8,168 nt of DNA, taken from Desulfobacterales bacterium. GTDB lineage: Bacteria; Desulfobacterota; Desulfobacteria; Desulfobacterales; UBA5852. Below are positions 2,413 to 8,021 of the stretch, piece by piece. The notes beneath the pieces were generated by a model that was not told where the DNA came from, did not search any database, and was given only the letters and a program-made list of their open reading frames with translations. Within the stretch, counting starts at the first letter, position 1; each line of letters begins with the position of its first letter. The translations under genes and the position numbers were made by a program. The DNA is taken from the NCBI GenBank assembly GCA_016735415.1, contig JAERRP010000698.1, forward strand, positions 1-8,168, in the 5' to 3' direction.

Positions 2413-4497
2413 ATGCCGTTTCCATTTACATTCCGATATCAAAGGGGGGCCGTGAAAGGACTGTGGGGTACCCTGATTGCTACCGGTGTCCTATTGTTTG
2501 GCATAGTTGCTCTATCAACTGCAGCAACAAGGAAGGATGTCATCGGCACCTATGAACTAACATGTAAAGAAACGTTTCATGCAAAGGGATATGGTAAGGA
2601 TCATTGGATAGATACAGTTCAACTGGTCCTAAGAGCCGATGATACTTTTACTCTTGGTGACACCGAAGGAACATTTTTACTCAACCCAAAAGGAAAAAAA
2701 ATTCTGCTGCAGATTGAAGAATCTAGCTTGGATACATTTAAAGACGGCTGTACTGAGATTATATCTGATCTTGCATTTGAAAAAGGCACCATCCTTGAAC
2801 CTCGGGAGATTACGTGCGTAATCCAAACGCTCAAAATATCCAAAATAAAAATAGATAAAAAAACCGGTAAAGCAAAAGGAAAGTTAAAAGTCGCAATTAA
2901 AGGAATTGCCAGTGTTGAAGTTGATGGCGAGCTGAAGCAAAATAAATTCTCTTATAAAAATATATGTAAGATCAACAACGAAGGGGCTACGGTACCGCCG
3001 CCCATATACAGCGACGATTTCAGCACCGACACGACCGCCGAGTACACGGTTGTGGACACCAAGACCAGCGGCGGCTTTGGATCATTTTTATATGATGGAA
3101 GTGGCCAGCGGGTGCGGGTGGATACCGACGATGATGTGGGGATTCAGTTTTCGCATACGCTGCCGCCGCTCGATAACGGCGTGTTTCAGATCGATTTCCG
3201 ACCACTGGTTAAATATCCCAACGGCGGTAACATCGAACTCGTGCTGAGGGCCGCGGATGGCAATTATTACAAGGTGCACAATACCGATGGGTACGGCGCG
3301 AAGGGGATCAGCAAATATGTAGGCGGCGTGAAGGTGGACAGCGCCGATTTCAGCAGCGAGTTTTCCCAGGGTGTCGATTACACGATCACGATTCGCTTTA
3401 GCCCGACCGCGACCACGGTGGAGGCCTTTGGCCAGGTTCTGGTGATGAACACCGACACGACCGCAGTGACGGTGAGCAGTTTCGAGATCCTGCTCGACCA
3501 GCAGGATGCCTATTTTGACAATATGCTTTTTTCCGATCAGCCGTTTGTTTTAATCACGAATCCCCAGAGCAACCATCTCCAAAGCGGCTTGGATTTACTG
3601 GTTCAAGCCGTAGCCGTAAATTTGCAGCTCGATTGGAAAGTTAAATTCATCTTGGAGGATAACGCAACGAATGCGATACAAGAGTTTATTGATGTTGCGG
3701 AGCCCTTTGAGCACACTTTTAGTACCCCATCTAATGGCGAATATACCTTAGAGGCAATTATTATAGACGGCGCTCTAGAACCGGTTCCTGGCGATTTTAC
3801 TTCTGATACTAGATTTTCTATTGGGATTGGCGATTATTATGTGGCTTTTGGAGACAGTATTACCTTCGGCGTCGGCGATGATTTAACCGCAGATGGATTT
3901 GGGTACCCGCCCATTCTGGAAGATTTATTAGGATTTCCGAACGCCGTTGTCAATGCTGGTATCGGGGGAGAAGAGTCTATAGACGGTTTAGCGCGCATCC
4001 AGAGTGTAATCGATTCCTACCCTGAGGCAAGCCACTTTCTTATTCTATTCGGGACCAATGATTCACATGGTACCATGCCCGTACCCAGTGGACTGAAATT
4101 TTATGGATTAGATCCAGGCGACCCTGGTTATGGCGAATTATTAAATCCAGGCGATCCTGGTTATGGCGGCTCTTTCCTTGATAGCATGCAACAAATAATA
4201 GATGCCGTTATAGCCAGTGGCAAAACACCCATTTTGACCAAAGTGCCTATAACCTTAGGGTCTTGCAGCACATGTGCGCCGTTTTCAGATCCAGACACGG
4301 CTTCCCGCAACATTCTTATTCAGGATTACAATACCGTTATTGATGCACTAGTAGCTGCCAATGGGATTGGCACCACTCCGCCCGATTATTATGACTATTT
4401 CAGAGCGAATCAAGACCGATTCTCTGACAACTTACACCCTGATGGCATAGGATATCAATCTATGGCCAATCTTTGGCTTGATGCATTGACACCCTAA
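2413..4497 (+). CDS. secreted multidomain SGNH/GDSL-family hydrolase
   Basis: This 694-residue exported protein has four parts. Residues ~14-38 form a signal peptide (hydrophobic core LIATGVLLFGIVALS, then A-A-T). Residues ~40-190 are an unrecognised, probably beta-rich domain with four cysteines (51, 113, 135, 185), suited to disulfides outside the cytoplasm. After a PPP linker, residues ~200-378 look like a concanavalin/LamG-type beta-sandwich (opens YSDDFS, ends YFDNMLFSD). Residues ~382-475 are Ig-like. The catalytic SGNH domain spans ~476-694: block I FGDSITFG with nucleophile Ser482, block II NAGIGG with oxyanion Gly519, block III GTND with Asn549, block V DNLH with Asp672 and His675. 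All four signature residues are present, so it should be an active esterase or deacetylase. The middle domain suggests binding to a carbohydrate or surface, but the substrate is unknown. The start may be ATG 2413 or GTG 2452; the latter follows AAAGGGGGG closely and gives a more classical signal peptide. Confidence 0.85.
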   Translation: MPFPFTFRYQRGAVKGLWGTLIATGVLLFGIVALSTAATRKDVIGTYELTCKETFHAKGYGKDHWIDTVQLVLRADDTFTLGDTEGTFLLNPKGKKILLQIEESSLDTFKDGCTEIISDLAFEKGTILEPREITCVIQTLKISKIKIDKKTGKAKGKLKVAIKGIASVEVDGELKQNKFSYKNICKINNEGATVPPPIYSDDFSTDTTAEYTVVDTKTSGGFGSFLYDGSGQRVRVDTDDDVGIQFSHTLPPLDNGVFQIDFRPLVKYPNGGNIELVLRAADGNYYKVHNTDGYGAKGISKYVGGVKVDSADFSSEFSQGVDYTITIRFSPTATTVEAFGQVLVMNTDTTAVTVSSFEILLDQQDAYFDNMLFSDQPFVLITNPQSNHLQSGLDLLVQAVAVNLQLDWKVKFILEDNATNAIQEFIDVAEPFEHTFSTPSNGEYTLEAIIIDGALEPVPGDFTSDTRFSIGIGDYYVAFGDSITFGVGDDLTADGFGYPPILEDLLGFPNAVVNAGIGGEESIDGLARIQSVIDSYPEASHFLILFGTNDSHGTMPVPSGLKFYGLDPGDPGYGELLNPGDPGYGGSFLDSMQQIIDAVIASGKTPILTKVPITLGSCSTCAPFSDPDTASRNILIQDYNTVIDALVAANGIGTTPPDYYDYFRANQDRFSDNLHPDGIGYQSMANLWLDALTP
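4112..4168 (+). repeat. 33-base tandem duplication inside the SGNH domain
   Basis: The 24-base block at 4112-4135 recurs at 4145-4168 with a single mismatch. The period is 33 bases, so the frame is kept. It produces two copies of an 11-residue unit, LDPGDPGYGEL and LNPGDPGYGGS (residues ~566-587), in the loop region between catalytic blocks III and V. It looks like a recent in-frame duplication. Confidence 0.85.
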
Positions 4498-5046: not shown

Positions 5047-6525
5047 ATGAGCGCCCAAACGACAGGAAACAATTCCTTCTCCTTTCGTGTTTGCCGCAGG
5101 TCACGGGTTGCCCGGGATGTGCGCTATGACGGGATTTTTTATTCGGGTTCCTCAACCACAAAAATCTATTGCCGTCCAGGCTGCCCGGGAAAACCTCCCC
5201 GGGCGTCAAACAATATTTTTTTTTCAAGCAGAACCCAGGCTGAAAAGGCTGGATTCAGACCGTGTCTTCGCTGTCGCCCGGAGCTGGCTCCGCACCACCC
5301 CATTCAAAAAGCCGCTGGATGGCAGGTTCGTAATGCACTTGGACATATCCACCAGGGACTATTCCCTGACAAGGCGTTTGAGGCCCAGGACGCACCAGCC
5401 AAAGCACCACCGGATCAGATGCCCATTGATTTTCACGCCGCTGTAGGGTTCACGCTGCCAGGGTATTGGCAAACATTTCAATTGGGCTTTGCTAAAATGC
5501 TGCTTACCGACACAGCTTTGCCTTTAGAAGACATCTCCAGCATCTCCAGGTTTGACAACTCCCAGAACATGTTGGATGCATTGTCCAATCTTTACCGGCG
5601 TGACCCGCTCGCGTTCAGAAAGCCCTTGCCCGTTCAAATTCAGCCCGGCGTGGAATCGTGTGCGCTGATGCTGTCCTACCGGCCACCGTTTGACTGGTCG
5701 GCTTTGCTTAACTATTTCCGCACGCGCGCCGTTGCCGGTGTGGAAAAGGTGGCAGATGAGGTTTACCAGAGAAGCTTTTGCCTGAATGGACACCGGGGCT
5801 GGTTGTCCCTTCAAAATGTGTCGAATGTCAATGCCGTGCGGCTGGAAGTGCACGCATATAGTCTATCGTGCCTGATGCAGGTGGTGTGGCGGGTCAGGCG
5901 AATGCTCGATCTGGATGCCGATCCCCTGGCACTGGAAGCTTTTTTTGGTGAGGACCCTTTGTTAGGCCCTGCCTGGCTGCGCCACCCCGGTCTACGGGTT
6001 CCTGTGGGTTGGGAGGCCTTTGAATTTGCAGTGCGCGCCATTGTCGGCCAACGGGTGTCAGTTGGCTTTGCCACAAAACTGGCGGGCAACATTGTGGATG
6101 CGTTCGCAGAAAATCTTTCGCTGCCGGCACCAAAAGGCATTGAAAAGGTGTTTCCCAGCCCAGCCGGCCTGCAAGGGGCCGATCTACGCCCCTGCGGTCT
6201 GACCCGCAACAAGGCAGCGGCCATAGTGGGCCTTGCCCAGGCGGTGGTCAATGGCACCATTGATCTGGAGAATGTCAGCGATCGTGACACCTTCATCCAG
6301 CAGTGCACCGCCCTGCGCGGTATCGGTGAGTGGACCGTCCAAACCATTGCCATGCGAGGCCTGGGTGATAAGGATGCGTTCCCTGCGGGTGATTTAGGGA
6401 TTGTAAAGGCCCTGTCCACGGATGGTCAACCACCGAAACCAGCACATATTCGTAAAATAGCCGAGCGTTGGCGTCCATTACGATCGTATGCGGCCATGCT
6501 TTTGTGGGTGATGCGCCGCAGTTAG
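5047..6525 (+). CDS. alkA: Ada-type Zn/methyl-acceptor, AraC and AlkA glycosylase fusion protein
   Basis: This 492-residue cytoplasmic protein excises alkylated bases (3-methyladenine-type DNA glycosylase) and may sense methyl damage. Residues ~18-82 are the Ada Zn domain with Cys42, Cys46, Cys73 and Cys76, the spacing of E. coli Ada Cys38/42/69/72, where Cys38 accepts methyl groups from phosphotriesters. Residues ~92-192 are an AraC-type region; its second half is clear (WQTFQLGFAKMLLTDTALPL to YRRDPLAFRK), but its first helix-turn-helix is unrecognisable. Residues ~197-310 form the AlkA N-terminal domain. The helix-hairpin-helix glycosylase fold follows, with LRGIGEWT (423-430) and catalytic Asp449 in FPAGDLG. 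The order Ada_Zn-AraC-AlkA is a known fusion. ATG 5047 has only a weak ribosome-binding site. Spacing and theme suggest a repair cluster with the alkyltransferase at 6713. If the AraC part still works, it would regulate this cluster. Confidence 0.93.
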   Translation: MSAQTTGNNSFSFRVCRRSRVARDVRYDGIFYSGSSTTKIYCRPGCPGKPPRASNNIFFSSRTQAEKAGFRPCLRCRPELAPHHPIQKAAGWQVRNALGHIHQGLFPDKAFEAQDAPAKAPPDQMPIDFHAAVGFTLPGYWQTFQLGFAKMLLTDTALPLEDISSISRFDNSQNMLDALSNLYRRDPLAFRKPLPVQIQPGVESCALMLSYRPPFDWSALLNYFRTRAVAGVEKVADEVYQRSFCLNGHRGWLSLQNVSNVNAVRLEVHAYSLSCLMQVVWRVRRMLDLDADPLALEAFFGEDPLLGPAWLRHPGLRVPVGWEAFEFAVRAIVGQRVSVGFATKLAGNIVDAFAENLSLPAPKGIEKVFPSPAGLQGADLRPCGLTRNKAAAIVGLAQAVVNGTIDLENVSDRDTFIQQCTALRGIGEWTVQTIAMRGLGDKDAFPAGDLGIVKALSTDGQPPKPAHIRKIAERWRPLRSYAAMLLWVMRRS

Positions 6526-6700: not shown

Positions 6701-6705
6701 AGGAG
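6701..6705 (+). promoter_or_regulatory. ribosome-binding site deciding the alkyltransferase start
   Basis: AGGAG lies 7 bases before ATG 6713, an ideal spacing. An earlier in-frame ATG at 6689 would place this site inside the coding sequence and lacks its own, so 6713 is the better start. Confidence 0.8.
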
Positions 6706-6712
6706 AATTCAC

Positions 6713-7198
6713 ATGCGCTACGATATCATGAACTCGGAACTTGGTCCGATCCTTTTCTCTCGCGATGGCACAGGCATCAACAGAGTGCACTTTCTCAACA
6801 GTGCCAAATCGTTGCCCCGGGATGAAAGTTGGCGGCAGACCAGCCAGGATCCACTGCTCCAGGAAACCCGCCGGCAATTAAAGGCCTACTTTTCCGGGAA
6901 ACAGCGGCAATTTTCCCTACCGCTCTCGCTGGAAGGCACTGATTTTCAAATCCGCGTCTGGAAGGCGCTCACCACCATCCCTTATGGGACAACGTGGTCC
7001 TACAAAAAACTGGCCAGCGCCATTGGAAATTCCGCCGCCGGCCGGGCGGTGGGCAATGCCAACGGCAAAAACAAACTGTCCGTCATTGTACCTTGACACC
7101 GGGTCATTGGCAGCGACGGGGGTCTCGTCGGATTCGCAAGCGGCTTGGAAAGAAAGCGATATTTGATCTTAATGGAGCAATCATACAATGGACATTAA
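6713..7198 (+). CDS. ogt: O6-alkylguanine-DNA alkyltransferase with in-frame TGA at the catalytic cysteine (putative selenoprotein, Sec128)
   Basis: This protein should remove alkyl groups from O6 of guanine (and O4 of thymine) by one-time transfer to its active-site residue. Read through the TGA at 7094-7096, it is 161 residues, normal for Ogt/MGMT. Family residues are present with human MGMT spacing: Tyr97 (Y114), Arg111 in RAVG (R128), Asn120 (N137), His129 (H146) and Glu155 (E172). The motif reads VIVP-TGA-HRVIGS, so the TGA codon falls exactly on the Cys145 equivalent, the methyl acceptor. The frame then stays open and conserved to TAA at 7196-7198. A SECIS-like hairpin lies just downstream. 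Neighbouring genes use TGA as stop and TGG for Trp, so code reassignment is unlikely. The frame overlaps the next gene by 11 bases. The alternative is a nonsense mutation (TGC/TGT to TGA) giving a dead 127-residue product, or a base-call error. I favour selenocysteine. Confidence 0.85.
7114..7130 (+). promoter_or_regulatory. putative bacterial SECIS element
   Basis: CGACG (7114-7118) pairs perfectly with CGTCG (7126-7130), closing a 7-base loop GGGGTCT (7119-7125). The loop starts 22 bases after the TGA. This fits the published bacterial SECIS rules as I know them: loop 16-37 bases from the UGA, loop of 3-14 bases, and a G in its first two positions. The loop contains GGUCU, also present in the E. 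coli fdhF element, where it is read by the SelB elongation factor. A weak lower pairing TTG/CAA (7107-7109 with 7137-7139) may extend it. No fold energy was computed. Confidence 0.7.
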
Positions 7199-8021
7199 GG
7201 GATTCGAACTTGATGATTACCTCGAACGCCTGAACTTTTCCGAGGTCGTACAGCCAACAGAGGATCGGCTTGAAGCCCTCCACCGCGCTCAATACTACAC
7301 GATCCCATTCGAGAATTTCGATATTCTTTTGGGACGTGGCATATCGCTAGAACCAGACGCGCTCTTCGACAAGCTGGTGCACAGGGCACGCGGTGGTTAT
7401 TGCTTTGAGTTGAACGGCTTGTTTCTTATGGCCCTCAAGGCTTTTGGATTCGACGTCCGAGCGCTCCTGGCCCGGGTCCACTTGAGCGGCACGCCGTCGG
7501 GACGAGGACATCAGATGGCACTCGTATCACTTCAAGGGAGGCAATGGATTACCGACGTGGGGTTTGGAAGCCTGAATCTACGTGCTCCGATTCCGTTAGA
7601 ACTCGATCACCCAACAACCCACGATGGACAGACATCTCGCTTTATGGATGCAGGACATTTCGGCATCATGCTCCAGACCTTAATAGCCGGTCAATGGCAA
7701 GATCTTTATAGTTTCGATTGGGGGCATGTGTGCACCGCTGACATCGCTTATGGGAATCACTTCACCTCGACCCATCCCAGCTCGTTCTTTACCTTTGCCC
7801 GTGTGGCGGCGCGCCCCGTCCAAAATGGCGCAATCACACTTTTCAATAATACATTGAAAAGTGTGATTGCGGACAAGGAGCAGGTTCAAGAATTGCCTGA
7901 GGGGCCATTGTATATCAATGCATTAAAGGATCATTTTGGTATAGAACTCGATGCACCTTACGAGGCGCTGTGCAAACTTCCGGGAACAGACCAGGAAGAA
8001 GAGCAAGCTTTCGAATTTTGA
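7188..8021 (+). CDS. nat: arylamine N-acetyltransferase
   Basis: This 277-residue cytoplasmic enzyme transfers acetyl from acetyl-CoA to arylamines, hydrazines or related amines through a cysteine thioester. The papain-like catalytic triad is visible: Cys72 in RGGYCFELNGLF, His108 in GRGHQMALV and Asp123 in WITDVGFG. The conserved IPFENFDILLG stands at 39-49. Length matches the family (about 260-280). The ATG at 7188 has GGAG at 7174-7177, which lies within the last codons of the alkyltransferase frame; the two frames overlap by 11 bases, suggesting coupled translation. In bacteria the physiological substrate is often unknown, and a link to DNA alkylation repair is not established. Codons 214-228 hold a perfect inverted repeat (see 7829-7871). 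No clear terminator follows. Confidence 0.93.
   Translation: MDIKGFELDDYLERLNFSEVVQPTEDRLEALHRAQYYTIPFENFDILLGRGISLEPDALFDKLVHRARGGYCFELNGLFLMALKAFGFDVRALLARVHLSGTPSGRGHQMALVSLQGRQWITDVGFGSLNLRAPIPLELDHPTTHDGQTSRFMDAGHFGIMLQTLIAGQWQDLYSFDWGHVCTADIAYGNHFTSTHPSSFFTFARVAARPVQNGAITLFNNTLKSVIADKEQVQELPEGPLYINALKDHFGIELDAPYEALCKLPGTDQEEEQAFEF
7829..7871. repeat. perfect 19-bp inverted repeat with 5-base loop inside nat
   Basis: The arms 7829-7847 and 7853-7871 are exact reverse complements around the loop AATAC. The arm begins CGCAATCACACTTTTCAAT. It lies wholly inside the acetyltransferase coding region, where the protein (ITLFNNTLKSVIA) still looks family-like. The mRNA should form a very stable hairpin. 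Confidence 0.95.

Follow-up and report, generated by a model that had tools for sequence, protein, structure and literature searches.

A predicted selenocysteine alkyl acceptor in an Ogt/MGMT-type DNA alkyltransferase from a Desulfobacterales bacterium

A DNA alkyltransferase with selenocysteine (Sec) at its acceptor position has been predicted before. The 2008 GOS marine survey contains one Sec sequence under the name 'Methylated-DNA-protein-cysteine methyltransferase, pfam01035' (PMC2398784), and reviews from 2022 and 2026 place the Sec form among predicted selenoproteins with ABB14497.1 as the example (PMC9312934, PMC13188914; all three cited here from excerpts). The name of the Sec methyltransferase family is also listed in PMC7435645. 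With predictions of this family going back to 2008, the idea of a Sec-containing MGMT is not new, and the gene that we describe belongs to an already predicted selenoprotein kind. The first-pass annotation of this DNA had guessed that Sec homologues might already appear in selenoproteome surveys, and the three sources just named show that they do. We take ABB14497.1 to be a protein of Carboxydothermus hydrogenoformans. The excerpts of PMC1794560 and PMC1914089 available to us make no mention of a Sec alkyltransferase, and the corresponding terms do not occur in PMC12013277. In the open-access literature, with subscription papers outside the scope of the search, we found no natural Sec alkyltransferase that had been tested.

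An experimental comparison comes from an engineered protein. In E. coli, the Sec145 form of human AGT gives protection against MNNG and the Ser145 form does not, and the N137A substitution kills the Cys145 enzyme but not the Sec145 enzyme, which the authors attribute to a selenolate that is already present at neutral pH (PMC4150793, excerpt). The engineered AGT carries Sec at the same catalytic position as predicted for the gene studied here and is active in E. coli, but it was made with an artificial UAG system and not by natural UGA/SECIS decoding. A eukaryotic counterpart is the algal selenoprotein 'MDP' (PMC7539508, excerpt), which we liken by name and not by the position of its Sec.

We analysed a stretch of 8,168 nucleotides from a Desulfobacterales bacterium (contig JAERRP010000698.1), referred to below as the window. 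Like the predicted Sec family in the excerpted sources (PMC2398784, PMC9312934, PMC13188914), its alkyltransferase is a pfam01035 protein with an in-frame UGA. Compared with that family, the window gene sits in a clade of more than 100 short protein clusters, apart from a second group of TGA genes. The large clade around the window and this second clade are what is new here.

The alkyltransferase gene and its surroundings

Mechanical annotation stops the alkyltransferase at the TGA, 127 residues from ATG 6713 (Table 1). This ATG is a likelier start than 6689 because a matching Met opens the three closest homologues (L001-L003) and most of the short relatives. The first-pass annotation had placed the TGA exactly on the alkyl-acceptor cysteine of the Ogt/MGMT motif and had the frame continuing through HRVIGS to a Glu 27 residues on. 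Both statements are borne out by the DNA: positions 7091-7099 read CCT-TGA-CAC and are followed by CGG-GTC-ATT-GGC-AGC, the TGA is codon 128, and the GAG is found at the expected distance. With the TGA written as U, the frame reads ...NGKNKLSVIVP-U-HRVIGSDGGLVGFASGLERKRYLILMEQSYNGH-stop.

The read-through protein scores 106 bits against PF01035 (cut-off 27) and 104.5 bits against TIGR00589 ogt (cut-off 46.4). Stopping at the TGA leaves a product that matches PF01035 over positions 1-51 only, out of 81. Both PF01035 and PF02870 domains are present, as in the Cys form of Ogt/MGMT, and the window gene also has in common with that form the Asn-(7)-X-His motif and the Glu at +27; the Asn at -8, the His beside the acceptor and the Glu are all in place. 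The difference lies in the acceptor itself, where the Cys of PCHRV is absent and the codon is TGA, not TGC or TGT. The PWHRV motif of alkyltransferase-like (ATL) proteins is absent too, the acceptor codon being TGA and not TGG. The best solved relatives of the protein are 4wxc/4bhb and the C-terminal domain of E. coli Ada (1sfe). We consider it very probable that 6713-7198 is a single Ogt/MGMT-type alkyltransferase gene whose acceptor TGA is decoded as Sec, helped by a bSECIS-like hairpin.

The upstream neighbour encodes an Ada metal-binding domain fused to an AlkA glycosylase, and together with the adjoining alkyltransferase it resembles a split adaptive-response unit. Downstream, the start-codon overlap at 7188-7198 suggests that translation of the alkyltransferase and the N-acetyltransferase is coupled. 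The N-acetyltransferase gene ends in TGA (8019-8021), so TGA is also an ordinary stop here. A conserved operon around the alkyltransferase was considered and rejected: the neighbours in L001-L003 differ from those in the window, and the neighbourhood is unconserved in L002 and L003. We draw no argument from gene neighbourhood. At the other end of the window, positions 1-500 carry CATACACA-type repeats and have a GC content of 0.29, compared with 0.38-0.58 for the remaining window, and are possibly a chimeric or low-quality contig end.

Table 1. Features of the window around the predicted Sec codon
Feature	Position	Strand	Remarks
694-residue protein	2413-4497		GDSL lipase/acylhydrolase domain at the C-terminus
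Ada metal-binding domain fused to AlkA glycosylase	5047..6525	+	alkylation repair; upstream neighbour
Shine-Dalgarno-like AGGAG	6701..6705	+	7 nt 5' of ATG 6713; read by eye in the sequence
Alkyltransferase gene, TGA read through	6713..7198	+	161 codons + TAA
Asn codon AAC	7070..7072	+	8 residues ahead of the TGA; aligned to human AGT Asn137 (numbering of PMC4150793, excerpt)
TGA at the alkyl-acceptor position	7094..7096	+	predicted selenocysteine 128
His codon	7097..7099	+	immediately 3' of the TGA (human His146)
bSECIS-like hairpin	7114..7130	+	7-bp stem 7114-7120 / 7124-7130, loop GGU 7121-7123
Glu codon GAG	7175..7177	+	27 residues past the TGA (human Glu172)
Arylamine N-acetyltransferase family (PF00797)	7188..8021	+	downstream neighbour
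TAA, terminator of the read-through frame	7196..7198	+	11-nt overlap with the downstream gene, which starts at ATG 7188

The TGA codon and the frame beyond it in relatives

A homologue search with the read-through protein, sorting hits by TGA or TGC/TGT at the acceptor codon, had been proposed in the first pass. Scanning GTDB species genomes in this way gave 44 loci. The codon is TGA in the three closest, L001-L003, and TGC or TGT in 40, while L044 is untypable by motif. L001 and L002 come from Deltaproteobacteria MAGs (89 and 81% identity, respectively) and L003 from a Desulfocapsa MAG (71%). Within the order of G001, the genome that holds L001, an in-frame TGA occurs in 2 of 85 genomes, G001 and G002 (matches at E <= 1e-40). 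Viral contigs were searched for relatives and held none. A candidate third independent TGA lineage in G190, from a phylum search, was rejected: the acceptor in that gene is Cys, and the TGA terminates the gene. The ORF of L002 has two TGA codons, one at the acceptor (3116-3118) and one that terminates it 28 codons further on.

Protein collections hold many more relatives. We examined the best 120 of 2783 matching clusters. Among these, 111 clusters, a count that takes in the window's own (P0002), are 127-129 aa long, with the Pro that precedes the acceptor as their last residue, and nine (P0003-P0011) are full length with Cys. In the window's clade the TGA is read in DNA for four members (the window and L001-L003), and for the remaining short clusters we infer it from their end point.

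TGA is one base from TGC and TGT, and an error in sequencing or assembly could have turned a Cys codon into it. However, the same codon is TGA in the independent assemblies of L001-L003 and in three loci of the second clade, and at least 110 more clusters stop at this position. This recurrence across independent assemblies refutes the error explanation, to which we give next to no credence.

The same short proteins could instead mean that the TGA is a true stop, either in a recent pseudogene or in a deliberately shortened, acceptor-less DNA-binding protein. Gene callers do end there in the 111 short clusters among the best 120 of 2783, and UGA terminates other genes here, as at the end of the N-acetyltransferase gene. 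A decaying tail would show a ratio of nonsynonymous to synonymous change near 1. We compared the four TGA genes pairwise, using uncorrected proportions throughout. For the 27 codons that follow the TGA, five of the six pairs have ratios of 0.08-0.17, and the closest pair, with few changes, has 0.45; the 120 codons ahead of the TGA in the same genes give 0.19-0.27. In the second clade (L109, L113 and L114) the post-TGA ratio is 0.02-0.06. In two clades, purifying selection thus acts on the codons after the TGA about as strongly as on those before it. Decay downstream of the TGA in close relatives, which the first-pass annotation had named as evidence against Sec, was looked for and not seen. 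Moreover, the frame stays open for 28-44 further codons past the TGA in six loci measured (33 in the window), and a product shortened at this point would be without the acceptor, the next His and the Glu. We therefore regard a true stop as very unlikely.

Signals and machinery for selenocysteine insertion

The 7-bp hairpin is the predicted fold in the window and in L001-L003, with the loop GGU in all but L003, where it is GGC. It lies 24 nt past the UGA in all four genes; in the window its stem starts 17 nt after the TGA, and the 24 nt separate the UGA from the loop. The bSECIS constraints given in the Fig. 2 legend of PMC13188914 are a loop of 3-9 nt, a stem of >=4 bp, a G in the first two loop bases, a spacing of 16-37 nt and an MFE of at most -7.5. 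A hairpin within these limits follows the TGA in 7 of 7 TGA loci, which include the window and represent two clades only, compared with 5 of 66 Cys loci tested after the Cys codon. Where the residue is invariant and its codon degenerate, the codon is identical at 6 of 8 positions under the hairpin and at 26 of 86 elsewhere (Fisher p 0.017, for a hairpin region picked from the fold).

Folding energy by itself lends the hairpin no support because the shuffle z values are unexceptional. The 50 nt from the window TGA fold no better than dinucleotide shuffles (z 0.88). Against synonymous shuffles, the TGA loci have z values of -0.48 to -1.45, negative in 7/7 and significant in 0/7; the median for the 66 Cys loci is 0.08. 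An Rfam search of the window at gathering thresholds gave no match. Like the window element, the SECIS of E. coli fdhF starts with UGA-CAC and, as read from the fdhF DNA, carries GGUCU around the tip of its hairpin. In fdhF the GGUCU lies six bases nearer the UGA, and we claim no common origin.

Genes for Sec decoding were sought in the genomes of the relatives, G001-G003 (of L001-L003). Both selB and selA are above cut-off in 3/3 of these genomes, with selA running into contig ends in G001 and G003. Among control genomes, selB is above cut-off in 2/14 and selA in 1/14. G003 also encodes a tRNA-Sec (73.4 bits), which ARAGORN calls tRNA-SeC with anticodon tca. Rfam and ARAGORN searches found no tRNA-Sec in G001 or G002, both MAGs. 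The Rfam match at the tRNA-Sec cut-off in G002 is a tRNA-Trp according to ARAGORN, the best Rfam matches in G001 are tRNA-Ser and tRNA-Trp by the same program, and tRNA-Leu is also among the best matches of the two genomes taken together.

The Sec128 alkyltransferase put forward in the first pass is therefore supported by the TGA in three close relatives, by purifying selection after the TGA and by the bSECIS-like hairpin. The relatives' genomes support it further, with selA and selB in all three and tRNA-Sec in one. If decoding follows the E. coli pathway, SelB would bind the hairpin and bring Sec-tRNA to the UGA.

A second TGA group and the role of selenium

The pattern P-TGA-H-R-[VIM]-[VIM]-G was searched for in 395 genomes from the phylum of G003 and 398 from the phylum of G468, a Clostridiales MAG. 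It matched in 5/395 and 8/398 genomes, of which only one (G003 itself) and three (G571, G667 and G843), respectively, are alkyltransferase matches; the other nine were discarded as chance. The second TGA group consists of L113 (G571), L109 (G667) and L114 (G843), with TGA at the acceptor codon. Their proteins read ...NPVSFFVP-U-HRVIGAGGALVGFGGGL... or near it and keep the His and the Glu at +27. All three genomes encode selB and selA.

ATL proteins have Trp, or else a different inert residue, in place of the acceptor, and PWHRV is their hallmark. In a protein search with a second-group member, the best 120 of 7976 matches comprise 28 short proteins whose last residue directly precedes the acceptor, 77 proteins that carry Cys and 15 that carry PWHRV (P0124-P0126, P0128-P0130, P0134-P0138, P0141, P0143, P0146 and P0183). 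These 15 relatives would fit UGA being read as tryptophan, which would make the product a non-enzymatic ATL protein, and a Trp codon, like the Cys codons, is one base from TGA. However, the 15 are probably TGA genes that gene callers translated with genetic code 4. Residues coded by AT-rich codons are in excess in them, as expected from code 4 gene calling (median FYMINK/GARP 1.19, against 0.81 in the 28 short proteins), and three genomic matches at 63-70% identity to a PWHRV protein, found in the 398 genomes, all carry TGA at the codon. Among the matches listed in that search, there was no stop-free full-length match at >60% identity. The PWHRV relatives could still have a true TGG, that is, be full-length ATL proteins. 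In the window's clade, the full-length relatives all have Cys (Trp in 0/9, best 120 of 2783). The window also uses UGA as a stop, in L002, L109 and L113 UGA terminates the alkyltransferase ORF itself, and the selB ORFs of G001-G003, at 645-649 codons, contain no in-frame stop. Decoding as tryptophan is thus highly improbable, and we return to Sec as the preferred reading.

How often did Sec arise at this position? Our tree has 95 rows, 24 of them Sec, with the acceptor residue masked. It samples 17 short clusters out of 111 and 5 Cys clusters out of 9, and L003 was added by hand. L061, L095 and L096 are absent as duplicates of L001-L003, and L041, L044, L069, L073, L076, L079, L081 and L083 are omitted. 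The tree requires three changes between Sec and Cys. However, neither of two constrained trees is rejected: one with all Sec rows in one clade (p-AU 0.39) and one with a Sec clade that leaves out the nine Cys relatives (p-AU 0.91), the latter with a better likelihood than the free tree. The data are thus compatible with one or several origins of Sec and with changes in either direction.

What would the Sec protein do? Going by its homologues, it would bind DNA and flip out O6-alkylguanine, a selenolate in place of a thiolate would attack the alkyl group, and the group would be retained as Se-alkyl-selenocysteine. That this organism inserts Sec, that the protein repairs DNA and that each molecule is used once are inferences. 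Attack would be less reliant on neighbouring residues because the selenolate is already deprotonated at neutral pH, as in engineered human AGT Sec145. The natural short clusters give no sign of exploiting this freedom at the Asn, since the equivalent of human Asn137 is kept in 111/111 (best 120 of 2783). Judged by kinship with suicide alkyltransferases, a costly Sec may be spent in one turnover in return for faster attack.

To our knowledge, the alkyltransferase is suicidal everywhere else. Selenium could in principle make it reusable: attack by a thiol or a corrinoid might remove the Se-alkyl adduct, or selenoxide elimination with replacement might do so, giving a multi-turnover repair protein in these anaerobes. 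We think this very unlikely. If true, reuse would explain how Sec at the acceptor is affordable and why the TGA has been retained in two distinct groups.

One practical consequence is that gene callers routinely shorten this repair protein, as at least 111 clusters end before the active residue. Known selenoproteins are mostly redox enzymes, in which the same Sec is used over and over. In the excerpted 2008 survey, 33 of 51 selenoprotein families are homologues of thiol oxidoreductases or have Trx-like folds (PMC2398784). A Sec alkyltransferase, if it works like its Cys relatives, would spend one Sec per repaired base. Because the two clades supply many natural Sec sequences together with Cys relatives, the long-standing question of the advantage of Sec over Cys can be addressed here in a reaction without a redox cycle.
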